A program made the translations under genes and the position numbers. Below the pieces are notes generated by a model. That model saw only the letters and a list, made by a program, of their open reading frames with translations, did not search any database and was not told the DNA's origin. From Sarcomyxa edulis (Eukaryota; Basidiomycota; Agaricomycetes; Agaricales; Mycenaceae), in contig QUOL01000008.1 of assembly GCA_009761415.1 (NCBI GenBank), forward strand, positions 1,550,001 to 1,614,000: a DNA stretch of 64,000 nt, written 5' to 3'. This document shows, one piece after another, positions 48,226 through 64,000 of the stretch (within the stretch, counting starts at the first letter, position 1; each line of letters begins with the position of its first letter).

Positions 48226-48331
48226 TCCAGCCTCGACTATCGCGATTGCAGAGATGGTAGACACGAGCTAGGAGGTTGGGTGGAACCCGAGCGTTAGCTC
48301 GGATTGGAACGCGGAGCAGTGACGAGCCGCT
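48226..48331 (-). repeat. 106-bp direct repeat, distal copy (B2)
   Basis: Identical at all 106 positions to 48691-48796, same orientation, 465 bp start to start. It marks the 3' terminus of the retroelement next to the F-box-like gene. Confidence 0.9.
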
Positions 48332-48638
48332 GGGCGGGCGGGAAACTTGCTTCGCGAGATTTAACTCGTATCGACCAAGTGCAACCAGAATGTAAAGCCT
48401 TATATTATAAGAAATAACAATCTACGAGTAGTAAGTAAGATTGAGGGTGTAAGCAAAATCAATGAGTGTAAGGTAATTGAAGAATGACATGGGATGAGGA
48501 GGGTGGGAGGAAGAAATGGTAATAGCGAAGAATCGAGGATGGTAGACGAGTATTTGAGCGGTACTTTAGATGATGAATACGAAGGTAAGAGAGGAAAGAA
48601 AAATTGATGAGCTGGCGCTACCCGCTCGGCCGGACGCC

Positions 48639-48680
48639 GGTGCAGGCCTTCTCCCGGCAGGCGAGGGATCGGCCTGCACC
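48639..48680. other. Stem-loop in the retroelement A2 segment
   Basis: GGTGCAGGCC (48639-48648) and GGCCTGCACC (48671-48680) form a perfect 10-bp stem around a 22-nt GC-rich loop, close to the junction with the proximal 106-bp repeat. A role in reverse transcription or circular-intermediate formation is only a guess. Confidence 0.6.
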
Positions 48681-48690
48681 TGGGCTAAAT

Positions 48691-48796
48691 TCCAGCCTCG
48701 ACTATCGCGATTGCAGAGATGGTAGACACGAGCTAGGAGGTTGGGTGGAACCCGAGCGTTAGCTCGGATTGGAACGCGGAGCAGTGACGAGCCGCT
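48691..48796 (-). repeat. 106-bp direct repeat, proximal copy (B1)
   Basis: Identical to 48226-48331. It lies 69 bp past the recombinase stop codon, the place expected for B1 of a split direct repeat. Confidence 0.9.
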
Positions 48797-48865: not shown

Positions 48866-49509
48866 CTAACCTGCTAGGCCACTCATGTGGCGTGAAGCTA
48901 CCTGTTCAAAGGCCCGAATGTAGGCTTCGTATGCTAGTGATTTCCAGCGACCAGCGAGACGAACAATTTCGGGATCTACTTTTTGGGCCAAGTAGAACGA
49001 AGCACCTCCGATACGAAAGGAGTGACCGAAAGTTGTCCCCCAACCCCATGCTCGGAGAATTGTGTTGATACGGTTGATAGCCTTAGATTTCACCATAGGG
49101 CGAATACATCCTTTGTTGTCTCTCCATGAAAACAAAGGGTCCGTAGGACCAGCAGGTACAACTTGAGCCAGGTTCTCCAAAGCTTTCAAAGGACAGAGGT
49201 CACCTTGTTTCGTAAGAAAAATGGATTGGGTCTCCCCATTTGTCGCAGTTTTGGCAGAAGGGAGGTCAAGTCGTGCGTAAGGTTTGCCGTCGAGGTCCGA
49301 ACCGAAGAGAACATCCTTACGCTTGAGGTGTAAGGAACCGTCAAAGGAACTACGGGTCTTGACAGTAGCTTCGCCGAATCGCATCATACCCCAAAAAGCG
49401 CAGGTTGATATTGCCCAGACGCAAGCATCGAATGGTTCTGACAATTCGAGAGTTACTTTTAATGCTCGAAGCATGTTTAGGGTGATGGGTGGGCGGACCG
49501 GACGGGTGC
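48866..49509 (-). pseudogene. Tyrosine recombinase, C-terminal catalytic part (split gene)
   Basis: Frame open from the transposon edge to TGA at 48866-48868. It carries the catalytic core: first arginine in FWGMMRFGEATV, box II HSFRIGGASFYLAQ (His-x-x-Arg), tryptophan in GRWKS at the His/Trp position, and nucleophile Tyr in YEAYIRAFEQ. This is the recombinase that integrates DIRS/Ngaro-type cDNA circles. The N-terminal half lies at 62425-62963. Joining the halves across one copy of GTGC restores a single frame of 393 codons including the stop, so the gene was intact when the Plavaka element landed. Confidence 0.85.
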
Positions 49510-49519
49510 ATCAGCAAAC
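49506..49519 (+). repeat. Left target duplication and terminal inverted repeat
   Basis: GTGC (49506-49509) is the duplicated target. ATCAGCAAAC (49510-49519) is the left end of the element and the perfect reverse complement of 62415-62424. Confidence 0.8.
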
Positions 49520-49800
49520 TGGGTCGTTGCTACGCAGACCTGCATAGACTTGCATAGAGAGCCGTAGAGCCAAAGATGTTGTAGAAAGGGTCCCAACCTG
49601 TGTAAATCTACATAGTGTAGCATGGCATCTTCGTAATTCTACAGAGTTTTCCGTAGCCTCAACTGTCATCTACAAGGCTCTACATAGCCTTGTAGCCTCT
49701 CTATGTAGTTTTGCACAGTGTTGTGCTGTATCTATGAAGTACTACATAGCACCGTATTCTAACTATGTATCCCCCCTGTAGATTGGTGATTATTGGAGAG
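49520..49800. repeat. Left subterminal repeat region of the transposon
   Basis: Repeated CTACATAG/CTATGTAG octamers at 49608, 49680, 49701 and 49742, with many variants (TGTAGAAAG, TTCTACAGA, CATCTACAAGG) in both orientations. The same motif family recurs near the right end. Confidence 0.75.
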
Positions 49801-49968
49801 TATTAGCTTGTTCACCAACATGATTTTGTGTATATTGCTCCATACTATGGGACAGATTTGGAGAAAATGTAGGTCAACCAAAAGGACTCAATTCAACAAT
49901 TAAACAGCTTTAAAAGGAGCTACGATGCTACGGTGGTAGTGAATATGAACATCTGGAATAGAAAAACC

Positions 49969-52900
49969 TTAGTCAAGATCCACAGAGAGACCGTAATCCT
50001 CTGGATTGTCATCGTCCTGTAATCCAGAGCGAGAACTAAAAAAGTTAACATGTTAGAACAAATATTGAATCAGTTCTCATGAACGCACCCTCCGCTCCAT
50101 GCCCACTCTTGCAACAATGCCTCTAATTTATCCGAATGATAGTCGTTATCTTCGATCTTGTTGAGAAGTGCCCCGATAGCTTTGTATATCTTTCCATACT
50201 TCGCACCGTTGAATCGTTCCATTATCCGAGTACCGGTGCTCCACTCTTCGAGGCAATGCCGAATCTGGATATGATACGATGAGCACATTAAGGTTGTACG
50301 AGATATGGAAAACATACACAAGTAGCCGCGAGACAGAGGGCTTCACGTGGAAGAGGATTGAATTCGTCCGGAAACAGAGCAGCAAGGCCCTCACCGCGGT
50401 TGTAGAAGAACTCGATGCAGAGCTCACGTAGAGCGTCATGCGCAAAATTGTTTGTTTTATTCTAGAATAATAGATTATGTCAGTTACGAGGGGAATATCC
50501 ATACAAAATACTCACATTCTCGTCTTTACCCTTCTTGTGGAACTCATCCGGGCCATTGGATAAGAGGTTCTTGATTCTGTTGGCAGTATATTGTTTGTAT
50601 TTTGTATGGCTTAAACCTGGTGTGGTCGAGAAGAGCTGGTAGTGTGCTGTTACAATCTTCATGGCGAGTTCTTTCATGCGACCGCGGAATGTGGAACCTT
50701 CTTGGTATATCTGGAGGCGACCGTGAGTAAAAGCAAGGTTGGATAAGATGCTCCATACCAAGGTGGTCATGTCTTGTTCGTGATCCTCAAAATAGTCTAT
50801 ATCAAGGCACTACAGGTAAGTATAGATATTTCACGGCGTTCGATGGAAATTCTTACCTGGTTCGACCATACCACCATCGTTTTCGTGCGCAGCAATGGCC
50901 TCCATCAGACAGAAAGTAGCCTGTTGCCGGTCCTGCTTGCGGTGGGGAAACGCGTTCACTGTTGCAAGATATAAACGGTATCTCTGTTTGGCATTTTCCA
51001 AGACGTCCGACCATTGGCTTGGGTAGAACTGAAGCTGGGTAGGTGCACCAGTTTCTGACCGAGATGTCTTTGAATGTCTTTTTGCCCGCTTCTTGACAGG
51101 TTGGGACTTGTCGCTATCATTGTTGTCATTGGAATCCTCGCCGTCAGTGATGTTGTTGCCCACAGAGGTTTTGTTAGTTGTAGCATTGGCGGAGCCATTT
51201 GACCCTTGGAGTCGCAAATGAGTGGCAGCGGATTCTTGAAGGCGTTGCGGATTGGGAGGACGAGGGCCTTTGTTACGTTTACGGTGCTCTCGGAGAACAT
51301 TGATGTCATCATCAATATCCATATCTTCATCGGAATCGTCGTTGTGTTGCTTTGATCAAATAATCAGAAGGATGGAGTTGAATGAACGAGATCAAAGCAC
51401 TAACCTTCCTAATATGATTCCTCTTCGAACCTAGAAGTAGAAAAAAAAGTCAGTGATGAGCAGTGGAACGATCAAGATAACTTACGTTTGCGTTTCTGCC
51501 TGGGGGTACTCTCGTCATCAGAGGAAACATCTAGGGAACCAGGAAAGTGATGTTGAACTTGAGGAAGATAATGCTACAAAAGAAACGCACCTGTAGGAAT
51601 GTGCTTGCCTTTACGACGAGCACTCACATTCATGTCCAAGTCGTCGTCTCCGTTTTCTTCTTCGTCTGTGTCTGTGTCTGTGTCTCCGTCTGCCTTGCCC
51701 TCCACCTGTCCATCCGCCTCGTCATTCACCTGTCCCTCCACCTCACCATCCACCTGTCCCTCTACCTCGCCATCCACCTGTCCCTCTACCTCACCGTCTA
51801 CCTGACCGTTCAACTCTCTTTCCAATTCCCTATACAATTCTCTGTCCATCTCTTCATCTAGATGTTTCGGTTTTGGAGGGTACGTGCCATCACCATAATG
51901 CCAATCCTCTTGATCGGAAAAAAAATTCCTCCCCTCAAACTCGACAGTCGGATCAATGGAGTTTGGCCTTGTCGGTGGGTATTGATCGTCCGATGAAGCC
52001 GTATCAGCAGAGTGACTCCGCTCAGGCTGGTCCTGGTCATCTTGAGGAAGCTCCTTTCGTGTCAGAAGCTGAGAGGGAGGAGGAGCATGGCTTCGGTGTT
52101 GTGAATTGACCGCCAATGACTGTTGTCGGGACTGAAGGTCTGGACGTTGAGGGGGGGTTTGACGGGGTGCTGAGCAAGACTGGAGATTGCCTTGATTTGG
52201 CCTACCCGAAACAGAGTGTTGTCGAGCCAAAGAGTTTGAACCAGACTCGGCGTCTCGACGGCTGCCAGCTTGATTTCCTGAAGTGACAACTCTAAATGGG
52301 GATGGTTTAGACGGTTTCGAACGCGTGGCATTTGGACTGGGACGTGGAAGATCCAGGGTCGGGTCAACGACGGGGGCACGATTACCGCTGGCTTGACCTT
52401 TGGGGGCAGTGACTGCTGCCGAGGATGGCTTGGTAGAAGTCGAGGACGAAGGAGTGGTTTTGCCGGTTGCAAGATTGCGAAAGGGTGGTGGAGCAAAAGA
52501 ACGGATGTCGCCAGTCTGTAGCCCAAACCGGCCACCATTTGCAAGCTGAAACCTTGGACTCCGAGGACCATTGAGACTAGGTTCAGTTCCAGGTGGAACC
52601 ATAAAGGTTTGACTCGGGGCAGCTGGGACCTGCGTTGAGGGAGAGTTTGAATCTGATGGTCCAGAATTTGCTACAGTCTGTGACAGTCAGTACTATCATG
52701 GGTGCTAATGTGATGAACATACCTTCTTGACGCGACGAGGTTTGACAGCAGCCGGAGGTGCCAATGGATTGACAGGAACACTTTTGGGAATAGTTTCGAG
52801 ACCAGACGTCTTTTTGGAACGTTGAGGGCGAGTTATCTTCTCTGAGATACTTTCCAATCGTGCCAGTCTTCCTCCAGTTCCACGGTTAGCGCGCCGAGGC

Positions 52901-53020
52901 CTATCATTGGAAGCTGTTTGCGTATCATCTGTATGGAGGCTCTGAGATCAATTTGCAGAGAAGTGTATTCGAAGTTTGATACTCACCTGGCGGTGGATCA
53001 TCGGCCTTTTTCCGAGCCAT
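49969..53020 (-). CDS. DUF6532-domain protein, transposon-borne
   Basis: Multi-exon gene from ATG at 53020 (MARKKADDPPP, spliced in phase to DDTQTASNDRPRRANRG) to TAA at 49969-49971. The long N-terminal half is basic, Ser/Pro-rich and disordered, with an acidic repeat of about eight residues (GQVDGEVE) at 51703-51810 and a run MDIDDDINV. The C-terminal half is DUF6532: FYPSQWSDVLENAKQRYRLY, TFCLMEAIAAHE, FRGRMKELAMKIVTAHYQL, HDALRELCIEFFY and IYKAIGALLNKIE. DUF6532 has no known biochemical role and is abundant in Agaricomycetes. Sitting in the element and transcribed away from the transposase, it is probably an accessory protein of transposition; that is inference. Exon limits in the middle are approximate. 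Confidence 0.8.
51703..51810 (-). repeat. 24-bp minisatellite coding an acidic octapeptide repeat
   Basis: A CACCTGTCCCTC... unit recurs every 24 bp (for example 51727, 51751, 51775) inside the DUF6532 gene and encodes GQVDGEVE-like octapeptides, preserving frame. Confidence 0.85.
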
Positions 53021-53173
53021 GGTGTGGCACGACAGACCACACCAAAAACAGACGGAGACTCGAAGTTGGAACAAGCAGATGGTCCTAGAATGACGGAAAG
53101 TGCGGTGAACAAGCTCAGAGGCCTGAGCGCTGAGAGGTAGCGCCCAGTTTTGCTTGCTTCAGGGTCAAGTTTT

Positions 53174-53215
53174 CCACGGGGTAAATCCACCGCCAGCGGT
53201 AGATTTACCCCGTGG
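53174..53215. other. 42-bp near-perfect palindrome
   Basis: CCACGGGGTAAATC (53174-53187) and its reverse complement (53202-53215) flank ACCGC-CA-GCGGT, so only one position pair is mismatched. It lies about 155 bp upstream of the DUF6532 start inside the transposon. It could be a protein-binding operator, a hairpin, or a scar where two inverted ends met. Confidence 0.8.
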
Positions 53216-54079
53216 GACTTCTCCAACCCGCGGCGGACTTTGGCCTCTGTTTGGTCTCATCGATCACGCGATCACGATCGAGCAGAATATCTGATATTCT
53301 TCAATTCCCACAGTGTCTCTGTCGTCTTTTTCTTCATGGTTGCTTCAAGAATTCCCAAAATCAGTAACCAGAATCTTTACAAGTAACGTTCTAACCAACC
53401 CTCGTATACATCTGGTCCACCGATGACTGCGTCTTCGGTACGACCGATGATTTTTCGTGGTATTGTGAAAATAATAATTTGTCTAGACAAGGTCGGATGG
53501 CTTATTGTCACTCTTCGAGGAGAAAACTCTGACGATATAGCTTTCACACAGTAGCGTTCTGGTTGCTTGCAATCACTCTTCGGCTTGCTCTGGGGATTAG
53601 GCGCAATGGCTCGTATCTGGCGGGGTCGAATTTGTCGGGCGCTGGTCTCCATATCGAGGATCGTTGGACGTTACTTTGTCGAAAATCAGCAGCATGGATG
53701 ATGGGGAATTGGTCAAAGTAGGCGAGGATTGGCTTGGAAAGGGGACACCTTCATTGACAATACACTCGACACTGGACTTGGCTTTATCGCTAAGTTGCTC
53801 GAAGACTGTGACATCAGGAACGCAAGAAAACATATGTCTTCGATGCCATCAAGATCATCCACACCTCTTCATCCGCGACACACCCAACTCGTCGTCAATA
53901 TCGTCGTCATCGTCGAGCTCATGCATTCCTTGGAACGCAGGAGCTCGACTTCTCGTCGTCCTCATCATCTTTGCCTGTCCCATCTGATCACTCTATCACT
54001 GTGCCTACCCCGATGCGCTGTATCTTCGTCTTGAGTCTCAACGCATATTTTCCAGCTCATCGTCCATCCTCAAATTCAG
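53216..54079. other. Unassigned stretch left of the RPB1 fragment
   Basis: Short ORFs on both strands without domains. Its right end (CAAATTCAG at 54071-54079) looks like the end of an RPB1 intron, so part of this stretch could be captured intron or 5' sequence. Confidence 0.4.
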
Positions 54080-57000
54080 TGTACCTCAAAGCGAAGAAAC
54101 TCGCGCTGAGTTGAGTCAAATCGCCTGGGTACCTCGTCAAGTAAGTACAACCTGTCTTTTCTAGTCTCGTCTCGAAATCTCATCATTGCCCTATTCAGAT
54201 CATCTCTCCACAAGCGAACAAGCCCGTTATGGGTATCGTGCAAGACACACTTATTCCCGCGAACGTGAAGCCGAAACCGCTATGGACCGGGAAGCAAATA
54301 CTCAGTCTCACCATTCCTCGAGGTATCAACATTCAACGCTCTTCCGAACTAAAATCGTCCAATCCAGTCTTCGACGACGGGATGCTGATCGAGAACGGAG
54401 AGTTCATCTATGGTATCGTCGAGAAAAAGACGGTCGGTGCTTCGCAGGGCGGTCTCGTCCACGTCGTTTTCCGTGAAAAGGGACCCGAGGCAACTCGTCA
54501 GCTGTTCACCGGTTTGCAGATGGTCGTCAACTTCTGGTTGTTCCATAACGGATTCAGTATCGGTATTGGCAATACCATTGCCGATGCTGGAACCATGTCA
54601 TACATCACGAAGACGATTGCGGACAGGAAGGCGGACGTCACCCGAATTATCGATGACGCTACCCACGATCGACTGAAAGCTGCTCCCGGTATGACCATTC
54701 GTGAATCGTTCGAGAGTTTGGTGGAACGGCAACTCAATTTGGCCCGTGATACGTCTGGTCAATTTGCGCAGAAGAATTTGAAGGAAGACAATAATGTCAA
54801 GCAGATGGTGGTGGCTGGTTCAAAGGGTTCCTTCATTAACATCTCGCAGATGTCTGTGTGTGTAGGGCAGCAGAGTGTGGAAGGTCGTCGTATTCCCTTC
54901 GGTTTCCGTCACCGAACGCTCCCTCATTTTACCAAGGATGACTTCAGCCCCGAAGCTCGCGGTTTCGTAGAAAACTCGTACCTGCGTGGATTAACACCCC
55001 AGGAATTCTTCTTCCACGCCATGGCTGGTCGAGAAGGTTTGATCGATACCGCTGTCAAGACTGCCAAGACCGGTTACATCCAACGTCGTCTGGTTAAGGC
55101 CCTCGAAGATGTAATGGTATGTTATGATGGAACTGTTCGAAATTCCCTCGGCGATCTGATTCAGTTCGTGTACGGCGAGGACGGTATGGATGGTGCGTTT
55201 ATCGAGAAGCAGAACATCGACACGTTCGGCTTGAACGACAAGGAGTTCGAGCACAATTACCGTGTTGATGTGACGGATCCAGAGGGTGGTTTCGTTGGCG
55301 GAGTGCTACAGGTCGGACTCGATGACAGTTCTGTGGAGCTGCAAGAGAAGCTGGATGAAGAGTACAACCAACTCGTCGAAGATCGAAGACTCCTCCGCGA
55401 ATTTGTTTTCCCTCGATCTGATACCAGCTCTCCTCATTATCTCCCAGTCAATCTTCAACGTATAGTCCAGAATGCTATGCAAATCTTCCATATCGATCGT
55501 CGAAAACCCAGTGATCTCGAGCCAGCGTATATCGTCGACGCCGTCAAGGAATTAGGACAACGTCTAATTGTTGTTCGAGGAGACGATCCTCTGAGTCGAG
55601 AAGCTCAGGAGAACTCAACGTTGACATTCCGTATGCACCTTCGCGCCACTTTTGCATCTCGCCGCGTACTGGAAAAATTCCATCTCAACCGAGAGGCGTT
55701 CGATTGGGTGCTGGGAGAAGTAGAGGCTAAATTCAATCAATCACTGGCAAACCCTGGTGAAATGTGTGGGACCCTTGCCGCTCAATCTATTGGTGAACCT
55801 GCTACGCAGATGACGCTGAACACTTTCCATTACGCTGGTGTATCAAATAAAAACGTCACTCTTGGTGTCCCTCGTTTGAAAGAAATCATCAACGTCGCCA
55901 CGAACATCAAGACTCCGTCACTCTCCGTTTACCTAGAGCCCGATATCGCTAGCGACAAGTTCTTAGCGAAGAACGTGCAGCAGGAACTTGCCTACACGTC
56001 TCTACGGACTGTCACAGCGGCTGTAGAGATTTGGTACGATCCAGACCCTACTTCAACCATCATCGAGGAAGACGCGGTCTTCGTAGAGTCCTTCTTTGCC
56101 ATTCCCGATGAAGACGTCGAGGCCAAATTGCACCTCCAGTCTCCGTGGCTTCTTCGCTTGGAACTCGATCGAGCCAAGATGATTGATCGTAAGCTCACCA
56201 TGGCTTATGTTGCAGGTCGGATCGCCGAGAGTTTCAAGACTGATCTGTTCGTCATCTGGAGTGAAGACAACTCCGAGAAACTGATTCATTCGTTGCCGAG
56301 TATTGGGAGGTGCGGACAAGGATGAGGACGGGATGGGTGCCATTGAAGAAGACATCTTCCTCCGGCAGCTAGAGAACACCATGCTCAACTCCGTTAGTCT
56401 ACGGGGTGTCAAGCACATCAACCGTGTGTTCCTTCTCGAGCATGACAAGGTAGTCATCAATAACGAGGGTACAATTGAGACTCGAAAGCAGAAGGAATGG
56501 GTATTGGAAACCGACGGTGTCAACTTGAAGACTGTCATGTGCATTGACGGGGTCGACTTTAAACGGACGTATTCCAACAGTTGCGTGGAGATCTTCAATG
56601 TTCTGGGTATCGAGGCGGCTCGAGGTGCGATATTGAAGGAACTGCGTGGAGTCATCGAATTCGATGGATCTTATGTCAACTACCGACATCTTGCCCTCCT
56701 CTGCGATCTTATGACCCATCGCGGTACTCTTATGGCAATCACGCGACACGGTATCAATCGTGCAGATACTGGAGCTTTAATGAGGTGTTCGTTCGAGGAG
56801 ACGGTCGAAATCCTTATGGAAGCGGCGGCTGTAGGTGAAAAAGACGACTGTCACGGTGTTGCTGAGAACGTCATGTTCGGTCAAATGGCTCCTATGGGCA
56901 CGGGCTCCTTCGATGTTGCTCTCGATATCGATATGTTGAAGGACGCCATCGTTGATCACCGACTCCCTGTTGGCGGCGCAAGCTGATGGAGGAATGACTC

Positions 57001-57954
57001 AAGGTCAAGTAGCGATGACACCTGATGATAGCAATTCTCCAGTCTGGCAAGACGGAATCTTCAAAGGGGATCAAGCTTCGTTCTCGCCTCTCGCTATCAA
57101 TGGCGGAGAAGATGCAGCAACGTTCCCGTGGTTGGGCTTTGGTCAGAGTCCTATGGGTACCGGTGGCATGTCCCCAGCAGGCCCTGGCTACAGTCCTAGC
57201 TCGCCAAATGCATGTTCTCCCACTACACCCGGGTTTCTTCCCCAATCTCCCTTCAGTGGGGCTACATTTCCTTTCTGTAATTCACCCTATGCCACGTCTC
57301 CATTCTACGACCGCAGCGGACGAGGCAACCTCCCCTACGTATCCGCCAACGTCTCCCGCTCTCAATCTCTCATCTCCAGGATACTCACCTATCAGTCCGC
57401 GTTACTCGCCGACACTATCTTCATCATCGTACCCTCCATCATTCATTGCATTCGTACCACCAGCAGCCTGTGCGGCCAGTGCAGCAGCATGTGCAGCAGC
57501 TCCACAACTTGATTATTATATCTTCGGAAGAGCCTTGCACTGAGGTGAGCCCATAAGAACATCTTAGATTGAGGCTGAGGGGATTGTGATGTTGCTGACT
57601 CTGTTTTTTGCTGTTTTGACAGATGTTCATCCTTGACAGGTGAAGGTTCACGGGAATTCGTGTCGCGTTTACGGTGATTCACACCTCCCGTGGTTGGGCT
57701 TTGGTCCTATGGGTGCCGGTGGCATGGCTCCAGCAGGCCCTGGCTACAGTCCTAGCTCGCCAAATGCCTATTCTCCCAGTTCACCCGGGTTCATTCCCCA
57801 ATCTCCCTTCGGTGGGGCTACACCTCCTTTCGGTATTTCGCCCTATGCCACGTCTCCATTCTACGACCGCAGCGAACGAGGGGCGACCTCCCCTACATAT
57901 TCGACTTCCGCGCTCAATCTCTCATCTTCGGGTTACTCACCTACTAGTTTATAG
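54080..57954 (+). pseudogene. RPB1: Captured, truncated RNA polymerase II largest subunit (RPB1)
   Basis: Similarity starts abruptly at an exon edge with VPQSEETRAELSQIAWVPRQ, the segment that follows the NADFDGDEMN catalytic aspartates, which are absent. One intron is kept (54141-54198). A 2.1-kb frame then holds [12 protein letters not shown], a jump to [15 protein letters not shown] (in-frame loss of roughly 35-40 codons relative to normal RPB1), the bridge helix ([20 protein letters not shown]), the trigger-loop region ([20 protein letters not shown]) and on to 56289. There an extra T shifts the frame; the correct frame resumes as [17 protein letters not shown]. Further shifts lie near 56971 and 57325, in and after the linker to a degenerate C-terminal repeat region. 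No clamp domain or start. It is a host gene fragment carried by the transposon; the real RPB1 must be elsewhere. Confidence 0.9.
57122..57930 (+). repeat. Tandem duplication of the RPB1 C-terminal linker/CTD segment
   Basis: The block from about 57122 (CCCGTGGTTGGGCTTTGG) through the degenerate YSPSSPNA heptads to TCTACGACCGCAGCG recurs from about 57685, with roughly 90% identity by eye over about 230 bp. The second copy ends in a stop at 57954. Confidence 0.85.
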
Positions 57955-58102
57955 TCTTCAGTGATACCCTTCATATTTCCTTATACTTGTAATTGTAAAT
58001 TTATGTCTTATCTTGTATATTCCTCCGAGTTTTCCCAATACACGCCTAGTACGAAATATGATCCATGATTTGTAGTACAAGACCATTACAAGAGGCAGCC
58101 CC

Positions 58103-58605
58103 CTAATCCAACTTGACAGCAAGAGTCTTTCCATCAATTTTGACATAGTAGTTTTCTACGTTCAATCCACACATGTTTAGTATATTCGAAAGCATTGCAA
58201 AGCAAGAGGCTGGCGTACCTTTATACTGGTGGACTCGAGTATGGACAGAGTTATTGGAGCGCTTTAGTACAGCGGAGTGCCTGCTCTTTCTCACTGAATA
58301 ACGAACACGTCCAACATCTCGATTAGCTTTGTTAAGCCGTTCCTGAGCCTGTTCCAATTGCATGCTGTAGAGTTGTGCTTGGAGAATCGCCTCCTTCATT
58401 CGACATTCAGCGAGTAACTTCTCAGCATGGCATGTCTCTCGCTTTGCATCTGCCATATCGAGGGCGTGTTGAGCTTCTTGCACAGTACCAATAGAAGGAC
58501 TCTGTAGATAGGTAAGTGTCATACTATGAGCCTCGAAAGGATAGTGAATGGAGGACAAACGTCTAGACGCCCGGCATCGAGTTGTGATTCCAACACAGTC
58601 GACAT
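58103..58605 (-). CDS. Small coiled-coil protein, transposon-borne
   Basis: Three exons by phase-consistent splicing: 58561-58605 (MSTVLESQLDAGRLD), a middle exon starting at 58501 (SPSIGTVQEAQHALDM) and a last exon ending KIDGKTLAVKLD with TAG at 58103-58105. The middle part is a heptad-rich, Ala/Glu/Lys/Gln-rich helix (ALDMADAKRETCHAEKLLAE, then KEAILQAQLYSMQLEQAQER), likely a coiled coil; an Arg/Lys-rich patch follows (VGRVRYSVRKSRHS). I do not recognise a named family. It is divergent from the transposase with about 195 bp between the start codons, so the two could share a promoter. Total length is about 135 residues. Confidence 0.6.
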
Positions 58606-58801
58606 TCTACATGATAGCCATTGAGTATAGACCTGGAAAATATAGACAGTAATGCGCACCTATCAGTGTCAATACTGAAAAGCTGGATGTACACGTTGTG
58701 GGCGAAGATGAGAACGAAGGCCAAGTCAATTTGAAACTCCGCCAACACCTCTGAGCATTGTCGACAGCGACCACGACATCGATAATCACAATTCTCCCAC
58801 A

Positions 58802-61800
58802 ATGTCTCGCTGTCCTCGCTGTAAAAAGAAATTCAAAGACACCTCTCGTGTTCTCAACCATATGAATCAGCCTATGGGATCATGCCACTCTCTCCCAAGA
58901 AAACTGACTCGAATTTCTGACAAACTTCGTCACCGTCTTCGCCAGCAGCCACAGCATGCTATCCCAGGTACTACAGCCCCTGGATACCCTATGGGGGGTG
59001 ACGATAACGATGAGGACCTCATGGATGCCATTGATGATGATTTTTCGGATCCCCAGGTTCCATCTCAGCATGATACGGATCCTGTCGTCGAGGCCTACCC
59101 TGGTGCTTCGAAAATCTATGGAACAGGTCCCACCTTCATGCAGTCCTTCAATGAGGATATGTACGCTAAAGAACGCGAACAAAACCTCTACTATCCATTT
59201 GCATCAAAAGATGAGTGGGAAGTCGCCTCCTTCCTCACACAATCAACTCTCAGTATGTCTGCTATCGACAAATTCTTGTCTCTCAATCTTGTGAGTGTAT
59301 ACGACTGTTGCTAGCTATCACTTGCTAACTTATTCTAGGTCCGTAAACTACATCTATCTTTCAACACTGCCAAGGACCTCCGAGCGCGTGTCGAAATTCT
59401 GCCTAAGACTCCCGAGTGGAAATGTAAGATTTTGGACACCGTGTATCCCACCAAACACCCAGTTCGGTTGTTCTATCGCGATCCACTGGAGTGTATCCAG
59501 TCCCTTCTCGAAAGTCCTCTAGTATCGGACCATATCCATTTCACGCCTCTTCGACTCTTTGAGACTGCTGAGAAGCTTGTGCGGGTTTACAGTGATTGGC
59601 TTACTGGGGATGTTGCATGGCGAATACAGGTCAGTATATTTGATCCGCTATCAATGATATATAGGACTCACACCTTGTTGCAGAGTAAATTACCTCCAGG
59701 CGCTACCTTACTTGGGACTATCATTTCGTCAGACAAAACAAATATATCCGCGATGACTGGCAACCGTATTGCCCATCCCCTCCTCATCAGTCTTGCTAAC
59801 TTCGATATGGAGTTTCTCATGAAAGCTTTACACCACGCATTCGCTTTACTAGCACTTCTGCCTATTCCTCAATTTCTTCACCGTAGAAAAGATGTCTGCA
59901 GTCTTCTAGAGGCTCGACTGACGCACCAGTGCTTCGATTATATTTTTGAACCATTGAAGGTCGCTGCACGAATCGGAATCATGATGTCCGACGCCTTGGG
60001 TTGGAGCCGTCATTGCTTCACCCCGCTTGCATCTTGCATCATCGACACTCCTGAATCTGCTCTATATGCCGGCGTTGCTGGTAAAACCTCATCTGTCACC
60101 ACCGCAAGCTACAAAGAATTCGGTGATAATTTTCGTCATCCTCCTCGGACAGGGGCGTACACTTTGAAAAAGCTCCGTAAGCTTCGTCGCAGAGTTCACC
60201 CATGGGATATCGTCAATTATCTAGCTGCAGCAAAGAAGCTTCGTCTAAACGGTGTTCACCTACCGTTTTGGCGAAATTGGCCGGGTACAGAGGTGCCGGA
60301 GATCTACACACCAGAAGCTCTGCATCACTGGCACAAAGAGTTTTGGGACCATGATGCGAAGTGGTGCATTCGCATTCTCGGTGGTGCGGAGATTGATTTT
60401 CGTTTTTCCATTCTCCATCCACATACGGGCTTCCGTCATTTCAAAGAAGGCATATCGAAGCTCAAGCAGGTCACCGGCCGTGAGCACCGTGACATCCAGC
60501 GCTACATTGTTCCTATCATCGCAGGAGCTGCTCCGAAGGATTTTGTTATTGCGATACGTTCGTTGATGGATTTTCGATATCGTTCCCAGGCTCCAGAGCA
60601 TAACGATCTTGCTCTCGAACGTATCACAAAGGCCTTGGAGGAGTTTCATGACCATAAGGAGGTTATTCTTACTTCGGGAGCTCGCGTTGGAAAAGGCAAT
60701 CGACCAATCAACAACTGGTATATTCCCAAGCTCGAATTCATGCAGAGTGTCGTCTCTAACATACGAGCAAATGGATCACCACTCAAATTCTCTGCGGATC
60801 GCACAGAAAACGCTCACATCACGGAAATCAAGGATCCTGCAAGAGCGGGCAATAATCAGAACTACGAGGATCAGATCTGCCGTTTTCTCGACCGCCGTGA
60901 AAAATGTCGAGGATTTGATCTCGCTACATCTATTGCTGAAGCGGGGGTTGATTTTGGTGAGGCGTTACAAGACCACGAACCTGGCGATCAGCAGGTTGAG
61001 CCAGATAATCAATCTGACTCTTCTGACATGGATATCGACGCAGACGGATCTGACATGGACGACACACCAGAGAACAATAACCGTATCACATCCACTTCTG
61101 ATCTCCTCCACCAGATACATCCTGTCTCAAACCTGGGCAGCTCCCAAAGGACCAAATCAGATTATTTTGACACCGCGAACAAACTTCAGAGTGGTAAATA
61201 CCCTCGCGCCCCTCAACCATTCCGAACTTTCACCGATCCCACCGCATGTGCAGCGTTTCAGCTAAACCGTCATGCAAGCTTCAAAATCATGCAAGTGGAC
61301 AAAGCAGCGGAACTATACGAGATTCCTGATCTGCGTCCGGCACTGGCTGATTTCATGCAGCGTCTTAGATCTGGTGTAACAACCCATAACGTTGCAGGCC
61401 GCAGAACATCTGCTCAGAACGCATATCTTCCTTTCGATAGTCTTCAGATATGGACCAGTTTCCGCATCCAGTCCAAATCATATTACAGGCCTCACGCTCC
61501 CCTTCCACCTCGAACTATCAATGCATCTCCTCCATCTAACAAAACTGCATGGACGTTTGGGCGTTATGATCCAGTGGTACTGAATGTAGATCCTGGTCTG
61601 CAATGGCCGAAATGTGGTCTGACAGGTATGCATTTGTTTTTTTGATTTGCGGTCAGAATTTCTGCTTATGGCTCGCTCGTGGTTCAGGCCATGTCATTGT
61701 TCAAGTCTGTTTAGTCTTTCGTATAGTCGCACGTCGTGGCTACAATTCCGCCCCGGGTACAGACCAGTTTCTCTCTTACGTTCGGCGCTTTGAGATCGTT

Positions 61801-62082
61801 CCACAGCTCAATCCACGGCTCTCGTCTTCCCCTACTATAAAAGGACCATACCCCGATCCCGTCACCTCATTATATATTGTGAAGCGCAGCCATCGAAGCA
61901 ATGGGGCATCTATGGGTGACATTGTCCCCTTGCATCAAATACGTGCAGGTGTGGAGCTGACACCGTGTCATGGAGGTAAAGCCAACGTGCAATTGGTGAA
62001 GGAAACGAGTCTCCATCACCATGAGCAGTTCTATTTAGACAAGTATTTCGAGAAAGAATTGTTCTACGCTCTTGATGTATAG
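58802..62082 (+). CDS. Plavaka-type transposase
   Basis: Four exons: 58802-59290, 59339 to about 59628, then one long exon to 61625 and a last one from about 61687 to 62082. The start MSRCPRCKKKFKDTSRVLNH gives a C2H2-like zinc finger (Cys-x2-Cys ... His/Cys). The body shows the Plavaka family signature segments: PTKHPVRLFYRDPLECIQSL, VYSDWLTGDVAWRIQ, GTIISSDKTNISAMTGNR, HPLLISLANFD, ARIGIMMSDALG and DRTENAHITEIKDPAR, with the ending FYLDKYFEKELFYAL. The Asp in SSDKT and that in MSDALG are candidates for the metal-binding acidic residues. It is expected to cut and paste its element at the terminal repeats. No stop or frameshift was found, so it is probably functional. Confidence 0.9.
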
Positions 62083-62149
62083 GCTGAAGTAACAAATATA
62101 TCAAGTTCCGAATACTGTTCAATGATCAATCATTGCAAGTTTCTGTAGC

Positions 62150-62400
62150 TTCAAGTATGATATCAGTTATCTCTATCTTCATCAGGTCTACGCAACCCTT
62201 CCTAGACACCCTACCAGTCTTTGTAACTCTTCATAGAGCCCTCATCTATTTATGAAGTTCTACATAGAAATCGCACTTCTATGTGGATGTCCAGAGAGGT
62301 TTGGGAGAGCTACAAAAAAACTTCGGATTCTACATTGTCTACAATAATTCTACAGAATATCTACAAGTGCTATACATTCTATAGACACTATGCTCTTCTA
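62150..62400. repeat. Right subterminal repeat region of the transposon
   Basis: Dense TTCTACATAG (62258-62267), TTCTATGTGG, TTCTACA and CTACAAG motifs in both orientations, the same motif family as at the left end. Confidence 0.7.
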
Positions 62401-62414
62401 CGCCAGAAAGTCCG

Positions 62415-62428
62415 GTTTGCTGATGTGC
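62415..62428 (+). repeat. Right terminal inverted repeat and target duplication
   Basis: GTTTGCTGAT (62415-62424) is the right end; GTGC (62425-62428) is the second copy of the target site. Confidence 0.8.
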
Positions 62429-62963
62429 GATTGCCTTGCAGGTTCCGGAGGCCTCGTAGTGACCAATTGATGCGAGAATGGTCCTCGTCGGAGAGCGGTT
62501 CTGGCCATCCTTGTGCGATATGCCATGCGCGGACGGCTGAAAGGTATTTTCGAGCCACCGGGACAGAAATAGGCTCGAAAGGTGTGCCCTGAGCCAATGA
62601 AGGGTCGAGAGAGTCTGGGTCGGTTGTTGCCCATAAAGCGAAAGAGTGCAGTAAAGGAAAGGATGCTGGTAGTCTGTCGTGTTCGGGGATGGAAAATATG
62701 TCGCAGAAAAGGTGGAACTTACGCAAACCAGAACCGTAGCTTTCGGTGTCTCTGAGAGACGACCTGGATGCCACTTCAGCGAGGAGACGTATGACAGGAT
62801 GATCAATTGTGGATGGTGGCGGAGAATTGACACCTCTCCAGAGGAAAATACGCTCGTCCGCTCTACAATTGGGTCGAAGGGATGACGGGTTCAGTTGTAG
62901 TCGTCCTGAGACCGAGCGTGTTGTTGGAAGCGAGGGAGTGGAAGGTGACTGGAAAACTGGCAT
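62425..62963 (-). pseudogene. Tyrosine recombinase, N-terminal part (split gene)
   Basis: Starts with ATG at 62961-62963 (MPVFQSPSTPSLPTTRSV). Its A overlaps the stop codon of the upstream RT-RNase H frame (TGATG). A Ser/Pro-rich lead is followed by the SAM-like DNA-binding core (ESYGSGLRKFHLFCDIF, LPASFPLLHSFALWA, VARKYLSAVRAWH) and the frame ends at LRGLRNLQGNRT at the GTGC target site. The catalytic half is at 48866-49509. Beyond the insertion point the frame reads only a few transposon codons before a stop, so any product would lack the catalytic domain. Confidence 0.85.
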
Positions 62964-64000
62964 CACCAAGGTATAAGCTTGTCGGCTAAATGAGGAGGAA
63001 GCGAGACTGAAGTTCTGGTGGTAGATTTCGGAAAGCCAAGTAGAAAACCTGCTATGTCCCCTCGCGAGAGAGCATCGGCAATATTCTCTCGACTGGGGAC
63101 GTGTACGGCTTTCAGGCGGAGCCGATTCTGTGCTTGTAAAAGATAAACGTGTTTGAGGATTCGGTTGGTCTGTGCGCTTCGTGACCGACCCTTGTTCAGG
63201 ACTGTTACTACGCCGGAATTGTCGGAGCGTACCAGGAATTTGTACCCTGATAGAAGCTTGCGGTCGATAGCGAGACGGAGGCCAAGTTCCACAGCTACAG
63301 CCTCTGCCCATCCAATGTCGAACTCCTGTTTGGGACCAACCTTGAAGCCTGGGGCCCATCGCCACACTGCCCAAAATGTTCCAATAACAACGCCAATTCC
63401 AAATGACGTGCTGGCATCTCCCCACCAGTCTAAGTCTATTGGGTCGGAAGCATGAAGGGGGAGATCGTTGGGTAAGTGATGGAGTAAAAAGTGAACCCAC
63501 GATAGGTCTGCTATCAGCGATGATGGAGGGTTGAGCTTCGCTCTGGGTGATTTGAATTCCTTGGAGAAATGTGTTATCGAACGGAGAAAGGGACGGATGA
63601 GGGGAAAGATACAAGAAATGTGTACGAGTTTGCCATGAAGGCTTGCTGCCTCGTGCGCCGAGTACTTCTGATTCGGTTTGAGCCAACTGGAAAGGAGGTG
63701 TTGAAGCGACGAAAGTTTCTCGGGTGGGATAGCGACCGATTTTGTTGTGAGATTCCAATCGAAACCTATGTACCGTTGGATGGGTGAGAAACGTCGCAGC
63801 TTCTCGAGGCTCCACGGAACACCCATGTAAGAGGTGAGGTCCATGAACTCTTCCTCCGTCCAAGTTTGATGTGGGAGGCGTATGGCAAAGAAGTCGTCGA
63901 CCCATTTCTGGATGACTCCAAAACCGGCCTTCCGATAGATAGCTAGCAGCATGTCGGCGATTCCTCCGAATACGCCTGCACTGGAGGCTAGGCCAAACAT
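62963..64000 (-). CDS. Reverse transcriptase-RNase H of the Ngaro-like element (5' end off window)
   Basis: Open from the window edge to TGA at 62963-62965. It begins within the RT palm: FGLASSAGVFGG, then KWVDDFFAIR with the catalytic VDD pair, and YIGFDWNLTTKSVAIP in the thumb/connection region. The RNase H domain follows with acidic residues in WWGDAST, IGWAEAVAVELG, RSDNSGVVT and ENIADALSRGD. RT with RNase H upstream of a tyrosine recombinase and no integrase is the arrangement of DIRS/Ngaro elements. No break is seen in the visible part. The A of its stop codon is shared with the recombinase start (TGATG), so downstream translation may rely on reinitiation. Confidence 0.88.
   Translation of the reverse strand: MFGLASSAGVFGGIADMLLAIYRKAGFGVIQKWVDDFFAIRLPHQTWTEEEFMDLTSYMGVPWSLEKLRRFSPIQRYIGFDWNLTTKSVAIPPEKLSSLQHLLSSWLKPNQKYSAHEAASLHGKLVHISCIFPLIRPFLRSITHFSKEFKSPRAKLNPPSSLIADLSWVHFLLHHLPNDLPLHASDPIDLDWWGDASTSFGIGVVIGTFWAVWRWAPGFKVGPKQEFDIGWAEAVAVELGLRLAIDRKLLSGYKFLVRSDNSGVVTVLNKGRSRSAQTNRILKHVYLLQAQNRLRLKAVHVPSRENIADALSRGDIAGFLLGFPKSTTRTSVSLPPHLADKLIPW

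Follow-up and report, generated by a model that had tools for sequence, protein, structure and literature searches.

Fragments of host genes, among them part of RPB1, in an internal slot of a Plavaka transposon of Sarcomyxa edulis

A PlavakaB-like transposon of autonomous appearance in Sarcomyxa edulis has probably collected DNA-level copies of host gene fragments in one intergenic slot, with a piece of RPB1, the gene for the largest subunit of RNA polymerase II, as a passenger. The element lies in a 64,000-nt stretch of the genome (the window, to which all coordinates without a contig name refer), and its captured mosaic, at 53373-57948, comprises eight pieces matching six host loci, between the accessory gene and the transposase side. 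A preliminary description of this DNA had placed a fragment of RPB1 between the accessory genes and the transposase, and was right about that position. It had presented the insert as a captured fragment of RPB1; capture with introns was confirmed, but RPB1 proved to be only the largest of the eight pieces. A fungal DNA transposon that bears its own transposase has here captured fragments of several genes, all within one defined internal slot.

The complete transposon spans 49509-62425 (12,917 bp), opening with CATCAGCAAACTGG at 49509 and closing with CCGGTTTGCTGATG, the inverted CATCAGCAAACCGG ending at 62425. Its termini, CATCAG..CTGATG, follow the rule given for PlavakaB in the available text of PMC12730594, which names 5'-CATCA..TGATG-3' ends, a target-site duplication of 2 or 3 bp and the motifs C(2)C, H(3-4)H and a catalytic D/D/E. 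The transposase gene model (58802-62081, plus strand) has three predicted GT-AG introns and encodes 1038 aa with no internal stop, including the domain PF18759 (E=2e-84 and above cut-off, Pfam), in line with the earlier assignment to Plavaka. As judged from the sequence, the element looks autonomous because this model is open over its 1038 aa. An accessory gene region on the minus strand (50480-53040), homologous to that of the sister copy on C39, includes a DUF6532 match (Pfam; E=8.6e-6 for 50480-50809, with a weak match over 50831-51355) and more open frames at 51574-53040, and a small minus-strand gene of the element (58103-58606) is present too in the C9, C10, C3 and sister copies.

The element is bounded by TG on the left (49507-49508) and on the right (62426-62427) and splits a tyrosine-recombinase gene that we take to be DIRS-like. 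The C-terminal part of this gene is at 48866-49508 and the N-terminal side of the same frame, used for the frame test, at 62428-63200, both on the minus strand. When the element is removed together with one TG, the recombinase frame becomes continuous. Of the 31 further genomic matches to this recombinase, five were compared; each agrees with both sides in the restored frame, and one spans the joint. A Pfam search of the split recombinase stretches returned no match. In the five elements for which both flanks were read (those in the window and on C9, C10, C25 and C40), the 2-bp duplications match in all except the C10 element. A 4-bp duplication, GTGC, was considered and dropped, as a 2-bp TG with an element starting with C suits four of the five and restores the host frame. 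Two short elements bounded by terminal inverted repeats (TIRs), at C25:87323-88373 and C40:951157-954111, are probably non-autonomous members of the same family, and the 2.95-kb C40 element matches sequence at C22, C38 and C39. Outside the window element, 48227-48708 is 99% identical to C25:49198-49678, and its sub-part 48508-48691 is 100% identical to C39:1631098-1631281.

Donors of the mosaic were sought in the 35.6-Mb genome (40 contigs, C1-C40). Leftmost is a plus-strand piece (53373-53586) with 74% identity to C34:1161247-1161430, a donor assignment that is uncertain, as C34:1157820 matches too and the C34 stretch has no gene name. It is followed by a cytochrome P450 piece (53580-53670, minus strand; 87% to C2:233927-234016), two joined MCM2 pieces (53672-53952, minus strand; C23:1323349-1323422 and 1323616-1323888), the RPB1 piece (54033-57414, plus strand; 98% over its main part to the host gene on C1), a TAF4 piece (57413-57500, minus strand; 94% to C12:340325-340412), a piece of an RNA-dependent RNA polymerase (RdRP) gene (57526-57685, minus strand; 91% to C1:256538-256698) and a second piece of the RPB1 CTD (57686-57948, plus strand; 88% to C1 RPB1). 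The preliminary description had put RPB1 at 54080-57954; RPB1 is indeed found there, but the copy starts slightly earlier and ends at 57414, and CTD sequence appears again at 57686-57948. Pfam matches identified the donors as P450 (E=5.7e-6), MCM2 (MCM2_N, E=4.5e-28; MCM, E=2.8e-102) and TAF4 (E=3.9e-27). The RdRP donor exon itself fell below the family cut-off (20.5 versus 23.8 bits), and strong RdRP matches (137 bits) lie just downstream on the same strand. A retained intron in the C1:256538 piece was considered and dropped, the stretch being an open minus-strand frame of the RdRP gene.

Between neighbouring pieces there is either an overlap of 0-7 aligned nt or a gap of 1, 25 or 80 nt. The P450, MCM2, TAF4 and RdRP pieces are antisense to RPB1, and a bias towards sense orientation was rejected, both orientations being present. 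Four stretches of the slot yielded no donor in the genome (53221-53372, 53953-54032, 57501-57525 and 57949-58096), the first and last of which may be the element's own sequence. The captured block was present once in a whole-genome DNA search.

The host RPB1 gene is located at about C1:3517500-3523500, where exons with Rpb1 domains 1, 2 and 3 precede a 1180-codon open frame; it is known from these domain-bearing exons and the open frame. The exons for domains 1-3 are upstream of the captured part. With the host gene on contig 1, the alternative that the window locus is itself the real RPB1, which had been named at the outset, fails. A distant Plavaka transposase is encoded at C1:3501495-3502318, roughly 15.5 kb upstream of RPB1, with about 30% identity. 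Belonging to a distant subfamily, it was rejected as the capturing element.

The RPB1 copy runs from part of one intron through an exon, a whole intron (about 54141-54198) and the core to the start of the CTD. It begins inside the intron that follows the exon encoding ADFDGDEMN, presumably the RPB1 catalytic motif, and this exon is absent. A 726-codon frame at 54145-56325 contains Pfam Rpb1 domains 3-7 and aligns to residues 513-535 and 569-1240 of S. pombe Rpb1, results that confirm the earlier reading of RPB1 sequence at this place; the captured core includes the bridge helix and trigger loop. Among the indels are a 99-nt in-frame exon deletion at 54251/54252, a 1-nt insertion at about 56284 that shifts the frame, an 11-nt deletion at ~56967 and a 2-nt deletion at ~57323. 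The 99-nt gap was also considered as an intron, which was rejected as the missing stretch is exon sequence. The bridge-helix and trigger-loop sequence is kept, with E>K and S>N changes, and a D>N change is found elsewhere; at each of these three positions the homologues compared, 60 of 120 listed matches, agree without exception (60 of 60). At 17 of the 20 changed codons C1 has the commonest residue of these homologues, and the other three cannot be assigned to the copy because C1 itself is without the commonest residue there. The RPB1 piece is a passenger and cannot work as a polymerase subunit.

The retained introns indicate that mature mRNA was not the template, so the copy differs from a retroposed processed pseudogene, from which introns are removed, and the earlier argument from a retained intron against retroposition stands. 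Reverse copying of transcripts into the element would agree with the origin of most pieces in coding regions, and unspliced RNA would still be compatible with the introns, one of which is kept in part, but the pieces lie in both orientations and we regard RNA-mediated capture as very improbable. That the assembly fused RPB1 reads to a transposon is harder still to credit. The mosaic junctions are known from the assembly; relative to RPB1 the copy has 68 changed coding positions in addition to the indels, the RPB1 piece adjoins pieces matching five other loci, and an independent insert occupies the same slot of a sister element.

Alignment to the RPB1 of the same genome, as had been proposed, gave breakpoints, indels and a core dN/dS of 0.06. 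The core has 25 synonymous changes in 493 sites and 5 nonsynonymous in 1649 before the frameshift, and 8 in 154 and 2 in 527 after it (33/647 and 7/2176 for the two segments summed). Nonsynonymous changes make up 7 of the 40 in the core, compared with ~63% expected for a neutral copy of an unchanging local donor (p=6e-9). This low ratio, the 726-codon open frame and the frame-preserving 99-nt deletion would be in keeping with a core held by selection, the element making a truncated RPB1-like protein that would serve as a transcriptional or silencing decoy. The stretch past the frameshift is, however, equally conserved (nonsynonymous changes at 2/527 versus 5/1649 sites, Fisher p=0.68), and D>N, E>K and S>N strike the invariant residues noted above, which leaves such a decoy distinctly unlikely. 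The frame of about 700 codons reported earlier is real, at 726 codons, but is not evidence of function, as divergence is alike on both sides of the frameshift. Because conservation is no lower in the frameshifted stretch than in the open one, the pattern points to a donor allele of RPB1 that had already diverged, which would explain the low core dN/dS better than selection within the element. Selection that acted before a very recent frameshift would leave a similar pattern.

Divergence is uneven along the mosaic. The linker and CTD differ from C1 RPB1 at 15 of 114 synonymous and 13 of 330 nonsynonymous sites, more than the core (p=0.003 and p=9e-8, respectively), so this part may be older than the core or may have been captured separately. 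The second CTD copy (B) differs at 12/69 synonymous and 8/186 nonsynonymous sites. Six differences from C1 are common to CTD copies A and B, which fits either one diverged source for both or B having been copied from A. Divergence is higher in the RPB1 introns (5/46 and 4/55, with small indels besides), and C>T and G>A account for 38 of 77 substitutions, although changes run both ways. Pooled, the five small coding pieces have 17/134 synonymous and 27/463 nonsynonymous changes (ratio 0.46) and jointly look like older neutral copies; TAF4 alone (4 synonymous, 1 nonsynonymous) and MCM2a alone (2 and 1) lack this neutral pattern.

The closest copy in the genome, a sister Plavaka element at C39:660859-669886 (L019, L032, L033), holds different captures in the same slot. 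Homology between the two breaks at window position 53220 and picks up again at 58097, leaving a slot of 4.9 kb in the window and 1.24 kb in the sister, with no mutual match. The sister slot contains five pieces of a PHD-finger gene (19 to 312 nt, 77-100% identity), whose donor has a Pfam PHD-finger match (E=4.4e-10) with the finger itself in the uncaptured part, and 115 nt (82%) from the 5' coding region of RPB1, which fall at roughly residues 38-76 in solved Rpb1 chains. Together with the window piece, this 5' piece indicates uptake of RPB1 by both sister elements, each from a different end of the gene. A search for the window fragment in other element copies, suggested earlier, found the block nowhere else, but a different set of captures in the sister, including RPB1. 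The left end of the sister reads GATCAG (CATCAG in the window element); its right end was looked for and not found. No host gene was found in the slots of the three further copies examined (C9, C10 and C3), and a 741-nt stretch of the C10 slot matches only C3 (84%), C9 (73%) and a short native piece of the window element.

The different insert in the sister's slot also bears on whether the RPB1 block is a separate element, nested here between ends of its own, a possibility raised at the start. Within the window the Plavaka end motif is confined to the outer termini of the element, which likewise argues against nesting, and none of the repeat pairs listed (25 of 239) stood out as a frame around the block, although short ends could be missed in such a set. 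Another model has elements flanking donor genes co-mobilised by mis-excision, the block being built up in this way. Mis-excision has been described for Pack-TYPE elements and proposed for plant Pack-CACTA in the portions of PMC8903248 and PMC13317346 available to us, and the Plavaka transposase ~15.5 kb from RPB1 would suit it. Against this, that transposase is of a distant subfamily, the donors are spread over five contigs, the smallest pieces measure just 72-91 nt, end motifs in the window are confined to the outer termini, and both sister elements hold captures at the same internal place. We therefore consider mis-excision unlikely.

Instead, we favour the collection of DNA-level copies during repair within the slot, a mechanism inferred from the sequence. 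Breaks would arise in the slot after excision or at a 47-nt near-perfect palindrome (53171-53217) that marks the left slot edge and is common to the sister copy; repair would then copy unrelated templates, with template switching, and finish by end-joining. This route fits pieces from many donors, in both orientations and with introns, scant junction homology, filler and the use of one internal slot. The uneven divergence of the pieces counts for the same explanation, under which capture would have happened in several rounds and the RPB1 piece would derive from an allele that differed beforehand from the genome's own. The palindrome recurs at loci on C38, C2, C29 and C4. Four such loci were examined (L043, L044, L045 and L047) and had no element gene within 3 kb, as was seen for the loci read on C38, C2 and C29.

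RPB1 is present in both sister elements, an observation that would be unexpected with random donors and counts against the favoured explanation. Five of the six identified donors act on DNA, RNA or chromatin (RPB1, TAF4, MCM2, RdRP and the PHD-finger gene; the other is the P450), a tally that covers 53580-57948 and C39:664841-666082. From the two RPB1 captures and from TAF4, MCM2, RdRP and the PHD-finger gene, one could imagine that this Plavaka lineage repeatedly takes up host genes for transcription, replication and silencing, several of them antisense, so that small RNAs directed at the element would also strike essential genes and the RNAi polymerase, shielding the element, and that an early RPB1 piece may seed the uptake of more RPB1. 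We hold this shield to be quite improbable. With RPB1 as a donor in two sister elements, whether repair is random or certain genes are favoured can be asked by sequence alone, as can whether such cargo helps the element to evade silencing.

Host-gene capture by fungal DNA transposons is already known, as are Plavaka elements with TET/JBP genes, within the text available from the sources cited here. The window element resembles PlavakaB of Agaricomycotina (CMCT group, PMC12730594) in its transposase domain, CATCA..TGATG ends and 2-bp duplication, but the cargo described in the accessible part of that source consists of TET/JBP dioxygenase genes, whereas here it is a patchwork of broken host fragments (TET/JBP in the window element being covered by the Pfam scan alone). 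As in fungal hAT elements with histone H3 (PMC6710886, PMC3538342), a housekeeping gene has been transduplicated by a DNA transposon; the available accounts of hAT describe one small gene in many copies, whereas here fragments of at least five identified genes occur once. Also comparable are the fungal Helitrons that have captured genes (PMC4289320), basidiomycete transposons with gene cargo beside a mobility gene, but they are rolling-circle elements, and Pleurotus Helitrons are reported, in the text available, to lack host gene fragments.

The preliminary description had proposed a new type of Pack-type transposon, which does not hold in the strict sense, with a transposase open over 1038 aa and the fragment in one element only. 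Host coding fragments do lie between the TIRs of a DNA transposon, as in plant Pack-TYPE and Pack-CACTA elements (PMC8903248). Pack-TYPE elements are, however, described in the available text of that source as non-autonomous, and the window element carries a transposase gene of its own, with a block found once in the whole-genome DNA search; more than one copy is a filter of the packFinder pipeline that drops singletons, not a definition (PMC8903248, same text). Because it has its own transposase, the element is a fungal transduplication, with the donor RPB1 on C1 and the copy inside 49509-62425, and not Pack-TYPE in the strict sense. We encountered no description of captured RPB1 or of Plavaka host-fragment mosaics in the literature searched, most subscription journals lying outside it and some sources being available in part.

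RPB1 serves as a phylogenetic marker, and a pseudo-copy 98% identical to it over the main part could be amplified by mistake.

When 61 domain matches are grouped, this genome has at least 20 places with a Plavaka transposase. A tree was built from 17 chosen rows (the window, five genome copies and 11 of 120 listed database matches); in it the window transposase groups with an unnamed database protein, P0001 (89%), then with the sister (79%) and then with P0002, and the C9 and C10 copies form a separate group; the rows for C3 (20%) and C12 (48%) are poorly filled and their placement is unreliable. The named transposase matches are from mushrooms, for example Flammula, Mycena and Hypsizygus, among the 120 listed of 1265.
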